DNA from: Yersinia intermedia
GTDB lineage: Bacteria > Pseudomonadota > Gammaproteobacteria > Enterobacterales > Enterobacteriaceae
Assembly: GCF_900635455.1 (NCBI RefSeq)
Contig: NZ_LR134116.1
Location: 1,984,001-2,048,000 of the forward strand
Direction: 5' to 3'
Length of the DNA: 64,000 nt
Below are positions 44,547 to 46,256 of this stretch, one piece after another. Each line of letters opens with the position of its first letter. Within the stretch, counting starts at the first letter, position 1. Position numbers and translations under genes: made by a program. The notes beneath the pieces were generated by a model, which did no database searches, was not told the origin of the DNA, and saw only the letters and a program-made list of their open reading frames with translations.

Positions 44547-45815
44547 TTACCGAATAACCGCAATAGGACAATCTTGAATTCGGGTAGTATATGCAGGTGA
44601 TAACATTTCACGTTTCATCTGCCATTGTTGATTAACTCCTTGCCCGATAAACGCAATTTTACTTTTACCGGATTGATTAATTTTGTCGATAGCCGCCATC
44701 AATGATTCACTGTTAATGCGCGGTTTGCTCTCATCAAATAGACCCAATTGCGCGATACCCTGACTTGAAAAATCTCCCAACATAATACCTGCTTTCAGGT
44801 AATGGTGACCGGGTCGCCAAATTGCTGCCAGCCATTTGAGGGCTGCGGCAATAATATCCCTTGAGTCCAAGGTCGGAAAGTTGAGGCGAGTGCTGGCGAG
44901 GTTACTGTAATAGACCTCGTTACTGGCAAAAGGGCTGGTTTTGATAAAAGTTGATACATGGCAACAGTATTGGTGCTCTTTGCGTAGCTTTTCTGCTGCT
45001 TTCTCGGCATAGCTACAAACGGCTTCATGCATACTTTGATATTCTGTAATGTGTTTACTAAATGAGCGCGAACAGATTATTTGTTGTTTTGTAGGTGCGA
45101 ATTCAGCCACCGCCAGACAAGCTTCTCCGCGCAATTCTCGCACTGTCCGTTCCAGTACGACGCTAAAGTTTTTGCGAATAAGCGGGGGGCTGGCCTCTGA
45201 TAATTGAAGGGCGGTGGTTATCCCCATCACTGCCAGCTTTTTTGCGGTACGCTGGCCCACGCCCCATACCTGCGCCGCTGGCATCAGCGCCAGCAATTTG
45301 CGTTGACGTATGGGATTGGACAAATCGACTACACCACCCGTTTTATGCCATAACTTAGCAGCATGGTTTGCCAGCTTGGCGAGAGTCTTGCTTGGTGCGA
45401 TGCCTACACCGACATTTAGGCCAGTCAATTTGCGTATTTTATCACGCACGCCCTGACCAAACTCTTCCAGTGTAATGCAATGCTGCACACCAGTAATATT
45501 GAGAAATGCTTCATCGATTGAGTAAATTTCAATCCCTGGGGCCAGTTGTTCAAGAATAGTCATGACCCGTGCAGACATATCACTGTAGAGTGCGTAATTA
45601 CTGCTAAACGCGACGACACGATGCTGATGGATAACTTGCTGTATCTTGAAATAGGGTGCCCCCATTGGAATACCCACGACCTTAGCCTCCCGGCTACGGG
45701 CAATCACGCAGCCATCGTTATTGGATAACACCACCACAGGGCGACCATACAGATCAGGCCTGAATACCGTTTCACAACTGGCATAAAATGAGTTCACGTC
45801 AACGAGAGCAAACAT
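44547..45815 (-). CDS. umuC: DNA polymerase V catalytic subunit UmuC
   Basis: Y-family translesion polymerase. It has 422 residues. Catalytic acids are D6 (MFALVDVNSFYAS) and D101-E102 (SIDEAF), the same positions as in E. coli. The steric-gate region NSFYASCE, the helix-hairpin-helix part (VWGVGQRTAKKLAVMG) and a beta-clamp motif (AQLGLFD, about residue 358) are present. The ATG shares a base with the umuD stop. It looks fully functional, so the unusual UmuD upstream is its likely partner. Confidence 0.97.
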   Translation of the reverse strand: MFALVDVNSFYASCETVFRPDLYGRPVVVLSNNDGCVIARSREAKVVGIPMGAPYFKIQQVIHQHRVVAFSSNYALYSDMSARVMTILEQLAPGIEIYSIDEAFLNITGVQHCITLEEFGQGVRDKIRKLTGLNVGVGIAPSKTLAKLANHAAKLWHKTGGVVDLSNPIRQRKLLALMPAAQVWGVGQRTAKKLAVMGITTALQLSEASPPLIRKNFSVVLERTVRELRGEACLAVAEFAPTKQQIICSRSFSKHITEYQSMHEAVCSYAEKAAEKLRKEHQYCCHVSTFIKTSPFASNEVYYSNLASTRLNFPTLDSRDIIAAALKWLAAIWRPGHHYLKAGIMLGDFSSQGIAQLGLFDESKPRINSESLMAAIDKINQSGKSKIAFIGQGVNQQWQMKREMLSPAYTTRIQDCPIAVIR

Positions 45816-46171
45816 TATCGTAACTTATTGATACTAAATACAATGACACCAAAGATAACCCACTCTTCATCTCCTTCACATAATATGAGTGGGGGAGTGG
45901 CTGCATTCAGCGCCTCAAGGCGGGGAACCGGTCGTAAATAAAGCCGCTTAATATTGAACTCACCCCCGATGGTTGCAACGACAATATCGCCGTGCTGTGC
46001 CTGCAAACTGCGATCTATCACCAGCAGTGCGCCGTTGTTAATACCTGCATCACTCAGGGCGTCACCCTTGGCGGTCATGAAAAAGGTGGCGGCTGGGTGC
46101 TCAATGCAGTGTTCATTAAGATCGATTCTCTTTTCAATATAGTCCTGTGCAGCATTGCCGAATGCACCCAT
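45815..46171 (-). CDS. umuD: UmuD'-like subunit, lacking the cleavable N-terminus and catalytic Ser
   Basis: 118 residues against 139 in E. coli UmuD. The protein begins MGAFGNAAQDYIEKRIDLN, so its first residue aligns with E. coli position 23, at the Cys24-Gly25 autocleavage point. The catalytic Ser60 of the GDSM motif is Ala38 (GDAL) here, while the general-base Lys97 is kept as K75 (GEFNIKRLYL). A GGAGG site 5 bp before the ATG and the LexA box upstream leave no room for a longer form. It should act as UmuD' with UmuC without RecA-driven processing; phage P1 HumD is a comparable known case, from memory. Confidence 0.93.
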   Translation of the reverse strand: MGAFGNAAQDYIEKRIDLNEHCIEHPAATFFMTAKGDALSDAGINNGALLVIDRSLQAQHGDIVVATIGGEFNIKRLYLRPVPRLEALNAATPPLILCEGDEEWVIFGVIVFSINKLR

Positions 46172-46236
46172 AAAGCCTCCAAATGCGTTATCTAAGGGGA
46201 GAGCGTGATAACAAAAAAACGACTGATTTACAAAAT

Positions 46237-46256
46237 AACTGGTTATGCATACAGTA
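46237..46256. promoter_or_regulatory. LexA (SOS) box of umuDC
   Basis: Minus strand TACTGTATGCATAACCAGTT has the obligatory CTG-N10-CAG spacing and fits the LexA consensus well. It lies 65 bp before the umuD start, so the operon is expected to be SOS-induced. Confidence 0.85.

Follow-up and report, generated by a model that had tools for sequence, protein, structure and literature searches.

Results

A umuDC operon that encodes a short UmuD

We analyzed a 64,000-nucleotide stretch of the Yersinia intermedia chromosome (contig NZ_LR134116.1, positions 1,984,001 to 2,048,000), hereafter the window, and focused on its umuDC operon for DNA polymerase V (pol V), in which umuD stands together with umuC behind a predicted LexA box (Table 1). 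The protein was aligned with solved structures. Residues 4–117 aligned with residues 26–138 of full-length UmuD (8gmt_B), and residues 3–117 aligned with UmuD' from the first residue of UmuD' (1i4v_A, 6e-31), so that M1 corresponds to residue 23. The results showed that the cleavable N-terminal arm is not present in the window protein, which has no Cys-Gly or Ala-Gly at its residue-23 start, and that its Ser60/Lys97 dyad is incomplete, with Ala at position 60 and Lys at position 97. Both the residue-23 start and the two dyad residues agree with the initial annotation of this DNA. The same annotation had placed the ribosome binding site and the LexA box directly upstream; both elements are there, although "directly" is slightly generous for a box 65 nt from the ATG.

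Family assignments were clear for both genes, with UmuD scoring 119.3 bits against NCBIfam PRK10276 (cut-off 110) and 71.1 bits against Pfam PF00717 (cut-off 23.3), and UmuC scoring 704.8 bits against the NCBIfam UmuC model (cut-off 431). A PF00717 search of the window genome, which covered the second, full-length umuD that the initial annotation had proposed looking for, returned no second UmuD, its matches being LexA, the window gene and a fragmentary match within a 76-aa frame; a single UmuC was found at E 1e-60. Judged at the level of sequence, the window gene encodes directly what in E. coli terms is UmuD', and the database label "autoproteolytic subunit" does not fit its product.

Table 1. 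Features of the umuDC operon, numbered from the first letter of the window
Feature	Position	Strand	Description
umuD	45815..46171	-	118 aa, ATG start; natively processed UmuD' by prediction, encoded from the residue-23 equivalent
umuC	44547..45815	-	422 aa, intact; ATG overlaps the umuD stop by one base
Predicted LexA box TACTGTATGCATAACCAGTT	46237..46256	-	One core mismatch, CCAG for ACAG
GGAGG ribosome binding site	46176..46180	-	Same in 7/7 short genes of the genus
First six codons of umuD, ATGGGTGCATTCGGCAAT	46154..46171	-	Portion resembling the mobile 5' module
Codon GCC, Ala38 (GDAL)	46058..46060	-	Position of catalytic Ser60
Codon AAG, Lys75	45947..45949	-	Position of catalytic Lys97, Lys kept

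The short form is conserved in seven Yersinia genomes

Short umuD genes with 81–100% identity were found at one chromosomal place in 7 of the 25 genus genomes searched, namely the window genome (G000), G004 (Y. artesiana), G006, G007, G008, G011 and G018 (Y. proxima). The reading of the initial annotation as a chromosomal umuDC operon of this type is supported. The start ATG and GGAGG were kept with equal spacing in all seven, and umuC was open and 422 aa long in each. The leaders measured 51–67 nt and their frame was not conserved between them; in-frame upstream starts exist in G018, G004, G007 and G011, and the upstream frames of these four contain no cleavage-site motif. The ratio of nonsynonymous to synonymous substitution (dN/dS) for umuD was 0.02–0.16 in 20 pairs (the G000–G008 pair excluded), with many dS values above 1 and saturated; by this measure, the short umuD is under purifying selection in the seven genomes. 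Each of the six genomes set beside the window has the operon flanked by metY, NmrA and HxlR (metY partial in G007), and DUF2461 was seen in three of these six stretches. In G003, G010, G013 and G014, DUF2461 adjoins metY with no umuDC between them. A protein search added short forms from Y. hibernica and "MULTISPECIES [Yersinia]", and the Y. enterocolitica W22703 entry is frame-shifted and 95 aa long.

A sequencing error, a missed upstream start or a dying gene would each make the short form an artefact or a product of decay. The window frame is indeed open for 48 codons upstream, and one database entry has a 143-aa start, but no in-frame ATG, GTG or TTG lies between the upstream stop and the umuD ATG in either the window or G008; as the initial annotation had concluded on other grounds, this is not a missed start. 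G008, the sister of the window genome, has an identical UmuD with the same Ala (umuD dS 0.05), and a separate Joint Genome Institute (JGI) protein, P0003, carries this Ala as well, so the short Ala form is not a sequencing error. With the short form present in seven genomes, a sequencing error or frameshift was ruled out, and with dN/dS far below 1, artefact or decay as a whole is highly improbable. P0003, a protein of the window type, is listed as 143 aa through a start called inside the leader.

Truncation preceded loss of the catalytic serine

Ser was kept, as GESL or GDSL, in five of the seven short genus genes, and Ala occurred only in the window genome and G008; therefore, truncation preceded the loss of Ser. 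The initial annotation had treated the Ser-to-Ala change as part of the short form and raised the possibility that the combination is fixed in Yersinia, and neither is supported, the short form being present in 7/25 genomes and Ala in two of those seven.

Beyond the genus, Ser60 and Lys97 were both kept in 62/62 full-length UmuD rows (L075 and L112 cut short at the C-terminus), in 11/15 short forms and in 3/16 HumD-like or odd forms, counted from 107 UmuD/LexA rows after removal of nine LexA and five fragment rows. Full-length and short forms differed in dyad retention (Fisher P = 0.001, the rows not being independent). Because the rows are related, the set was deliberately enriched in short candidates and HumD-like rows align with less certainty, we read dyad loss in short forms as a tendency and not as a prevalence. 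The other short forms with dyad loss were those of Enterobacterales bacterium CwR94 (Ala, Lys), G109 (Ala, Arg) and G043 (Ser, Arg). The CwR94 short gene stops after 100 aa near a contig end, with the umuC start following, and may be decaying. In two genomes of the family (L064 and L065), we also observed a further short type (MGAFPSPAQDY) that has a LexA box and lacks Ser60 and/or Lys97.

Cutting in trans has been shown to be possible for truncated UmuD (PMC5342242). Retention of Ser for cutting a resident full-length UmuD in trans was considered and found unsupported, since full-length UmuD is present in only two of the five Ser-bearing genus genomes. CwR94 gave no support for trans cutting either: its short form has Ala although a full-length gene is in the same genome.

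The LexA box

The box TACTGTATGCATAACCAGTT was the top-scoring LexA site in the 64 kb (21.6; runner-up 13.4), and its score was equalled in 0 of 40 mononucleotide shuffles; the 62 boxes on which the scoring was trained include TACTGTATGCATAACCAGTT itself, and the same sequence occurs in Ewingella and Rahnella. A search with the window's own box found it unique within the 64 kb, and uniqueness is all that this search shows. The score lies below those of the five other scored genus boxes (23.0–28.9), and the box may have been weakened by decay, but in Ewingella and Rahnella the same box precedes a full-length umuD.

A mobile 5' module and a recombinase element in umuD

A start of the type M-[SG]-[SA]-Y-G-N was found on seven different umuD bodies, those of Yersinia G003 (L016), CwR94 (L066), Enterobacter sp. 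R1(2018) (L086), Hafnia psychrotolerans (L087), G195 and two Providencia plasmid types. These module genes could alternatively start three codons earlier, at another in-frame ATG (M-[AGV]-[RQ]-M). In CwR94, the short and full-length genes are nearly identical from about codon 30 onward and unlike before it, and the 170 nt upstream of the short gene resemble those of Hafnia, though the Hafnia body differs. The DNA pattern of the module start (≤1 mismatch) occurred in 6 of 392 genomes of the family, always at umuD, compared with 1 for the backward control; G000 is the sole representative of the seven short-form Yersinia genomes in this set. The pattern gave no match (0) in viral contigs or in E. 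coli genomes. These results suggest that a mobile module gives unrelated umuD genes the short form.

In Hafnia psychrotolerans and the two Providencia plasmid types, the module forms the end of a four-gene recombinase element that sits in umuD at about codon 30. Insertion separates the native start from umuD, which gains an in-frame start just past the cleavage site. The Hafnia short umuD (G172:C3:60920-61273) and the stranded native start (81459-81548; 30 codons ending GFPSPA, with its own LexA box) lie on the same strand, 20.2 kb apart. A public protein, P0123, is full length and has a body identical to the Hafnia short gene; on this identity, it is a natural unoccupied form. The Hafnia element genes encode 787, 710, 193 and 473 aa. 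Only the 473-aa product matched Pfam Phage_integrase, and the other three matched no Pfam or NCBIfam family. The interval also carries Gabija genes, flanked by the last recombinase gene and the module, and a set of the cyclic oligonucleotide-based antiphage signalling system (CBASS) type; the module here has its own LexA box. The defence content (L128:1793-5513 and 13295-18885) comprises GajA and GajB together with a cyclase, HORMA, TRIP13 and exonuclease- and phosphorylase-type effectors, which presents umuD as a site for a defence island.

An 8215-bp block (99.94%) is common to the Providencia plasmids NZ_CP145916 and NZ_CP096356, where it is inserted at the same codons of two different umuD genes. 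At its left edge are the GFPSPA codons of the umuD start, which then enters a short foreign tail, and at its right edge are the PA codons of the umuD body; the last recombinase gene ends in TGA, followed by CAAGATATGGGCAGAATGAGTTCATATGGGAATCC and the host umuD body. The four genes are 71–85% identical to those of Hafnia, and insertion is site-specific, with the same codons used in the two Providencia umuD genes and in Hafnia. A LexA box precedes the first recombinase gene in both plasmids.

By DNA, the recombinase gene was found in 7 of 72,556 plasmid records, all from Providencia and with umuD under the match (two were opened). Nine Pseudomonas plasmids carry distant relatives; three were opened, and in two of these the four genes recur in the same order at other sites. 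Of the 392 family genomes, Hafnia alone yielded a relative of the 473-aa gene (E 1e-30), and the recombinase was found in 0 phages and 0 viral contigs. In G195 and G003 the module was present and the fetched flanks contained no relatives of the recombinase genes, so the module can stand alone. As separate observations, the Yersinia G003 umuC beside the module-type umuD lacks the usual start in the listed frame and may be broken (L016:1872-1918), and on one plasmid that carries a converted umuD, other genes separate it from the annotated umuC, about 3 kb downstream (L127:11638-15751), so this operon may have been hit twice.

Short forms are scattered over the UmuC tree. In a tree of 70 UmuC proteins, the 14 short rows need 8 changes, which equals the number forced by the starred branches; 8 is not a count of origins because three of the changes may be one gain plus two losses. 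L016, L087 and G195 sit by full-length relatives on well-supported branches, and L126 and L064 are on long branches with less sure placement. The genus genes, all seven, fall in a single clade (100/100) without a firmly placed sister. The bootstrap of this tree is not fully settled, and the tree omits a umuC interrupted by a stop as well as four partial duplicates; CwR94 and NZ_CP096356 gave no usable umuC.

Origin of the short form in the window

We compared codons 2–6 of umuD with the best-matching module. Of 15 nt, 13 were identical in G018, G006 and G007, 12 in G004, 11 in the window and G008, and 10–11 in G011, versus a best match of 7–9 in 15 native full-length genes. By this comparison the 5' end of the window gene resembles a mobile-element module, which the initial annotation missed. 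The joint explanation that we favor, with a probability of about 0.8, is that the window encodes a natively short UmuD' that lost the arm first and Ser later, probably through a module swap. The arm would have been lost in the ancestor of the seven Yersinia genomes, most likely by replacement of the 5' end of umuD with the module that elsewhere ends the four-gene recombinase element. At present the window locus contains no element of this kind. With nothing left to cut, the catalytic Ser would later have been lost in the window's lineage. Taken by itself, the statement that the window locus is the scar of a recombinase element is probably correct.

Several observations weigh against a mobile origin. 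The margin of G011 over native genes is only 1–2 nt, and the shared codons are few. Relatives of the Hafnia recombinases were absent from the fetched flanks of the window locus and the six other genus loci, as was the 473-aa gene from the whole G000 genome, the only one of the seven searched whole, and the module leader was not found upstream of the genus genes. For a damage-inducible element in particular, the 406 nt before the Hafnia recombinase operon contain no CTG-N10-CAG.

A local origin, in which the native start and arm were lost in the Yersinia ancestor, the likeness to M-S-A-F-G-N arose by chance or selection and the protein works as UmuD', draws on the missing leader and recombinase relatives, and also on the window LexA box, which is identical over 24 nt to the full-length umuD boxes of L104, L095 and L099. 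It has to account, however, for the 12–13/15 nt identity to the module in four of the seven genus genes, compared with no more than 7–9 in native genes, and for seven further umuD bodies that begin in a similar way, and we regard it as possible but the less probable course.

Extending the module swap, a family of recombinase elements may use umuD as its site and carry a start that falls past the cleavage site, which would turn pol V from RecA-gated into ready-made. The Providencia LexA box could then co-induce mobility and the converted umuD, and the Yersinia umuD would be a domesticated scar that shed Ser later. As a whole, this wider proposal is tentative, with somewhat less than an even chance of being right.

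Comparison with known systems

The window protein resembles E. coli UmuD' in its S24-type family, its alignment from the first residue of UmuD', its LexA box and its operon with umuC. It differs in that E. coli UmuD' is the product of RecA-assisted self-cleavage, whereas the window gene is encoded short and its catalytic Ser is gone. An arm-less UmuD is already known from phage P1, whose HumD also has a LexA box ahead and, according to the P1 record, complements UmuD'. The comparison with HumD drawn by the initial annotation stands for the form of the protein and stops there: humD has no umuC beside it and the window gene has its own, the two proteins share 38.7% identity, and P1 HumD starts with MGFPSPA, not MGAFGN. 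Membership of the window protein in HumD (NCBIfam NF051876) was ruled out by its score (93.2 bits, cut-off 120).

The umuD element shares four adjacent putative recombination genes and site-specific insertion with the GInt/SE multi-recombinase elements, and GInts may insert at the 5' ends of genes (PMC5385486; SE/GInt also PMC10214605). Compared by description, its gene order (787/710/193/473 aa) differs in that the small gene is third and not last, and this order does not bear out an assignment as a GInt. In the available main text, neither the GInt paper (PMC5385486) nor the SE paper (PMC10214605) mentions umuD. Pol V operons have been described as insertion hotspots, with integron-like elements in rulB and an ICEPan umuDC island (PMC4542609, PMC4458695), and Rhodes et al. 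describe rulA-like genes as not interrupted. In those islands umuC or rulB is broken, whereas the Hafnia/Providencia element sits in umuD, which is re-started in frame. Separately, the umuD of Salmonella phage Oslo (L035:801-1148) is annotated as 240 bp, but the open frame upstream would supply a complete arm and Cys-Gly, and a LexA box is present, so that the annotated start is likely wrong.

Proposed function of the short UmuD

UmuD' with S60A remains active. On loss of LexA, the bacterium would co-produce UmuD' and UmuC, and the two could assemble into UmuD'2C with no delay for RecA-assisted cleavage of UmuD at 24/25. UmuC is freed from the membrane when UmuD is cleaved, UmuC that UmuD' does not hold is subject to degradation by Lon, and RecA-ATP is a component of the active pol V Mut (PMC4552617). 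UmuD loses its Lon signal on cleavage, and its tether for ClpX resides in the arm (PMC5342242); on this literature, the arm-less protein would also lack both of these controls, which restrain UmuD and UmuD' in E. coli. The brakes left in place would be repression by LexA, turnover of UmuC and the RecA-ATP step of pol V Mut. The initial annotation had proposed a pol V free of the RecA delay; this is an overstatement, because only the UmuD-cleavage step would be skipped, and RecA-ATP is still part of active pol V Mut (PMC4552617).

An alternative role for the short UmuD would be to regulate polymerases or compete with them, acting as a UmuD'-like ligand of DinB, the clamp or RecA instead of serving in pol V as a working subunit. 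UmuD products do bind many partners (PMC5342242) and P1 humD stands without umuC, yet the intact, overlapping umuC, the same operon in 7/7 genomes and purifying selection make this role unlikely.

UmuD cleavage is the textbook timer that restrains error-prone repair, and the window presents a chromosomal pol V operon without it, a natural experiment on the value of this timer. Judging from the unrelated umuD genes, a mobile element may be able to take the timer away in a single recombination step that leaves a LexA box in place, which would tie the hotspot character of pol V operons to altered function and not to gene loss alone. No report of a chromosomal short umuD with its own umuC, or of element-driven conversion of umuD, was found in the literature searched, from which most subscription papers were absent.

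A further observation concerns the umuD LexA boxes. In four loci (L017:48; L033 near 1381 and 1932; L072; L112:4144), a string of the type CACCATGA(T/G)CGGGGAAGACCCAT, or GGGGAAGACCCAT in the case of L072, directly adjoins one half of the umuD LexA box, as if another mobile element inserted into LexA boxes.
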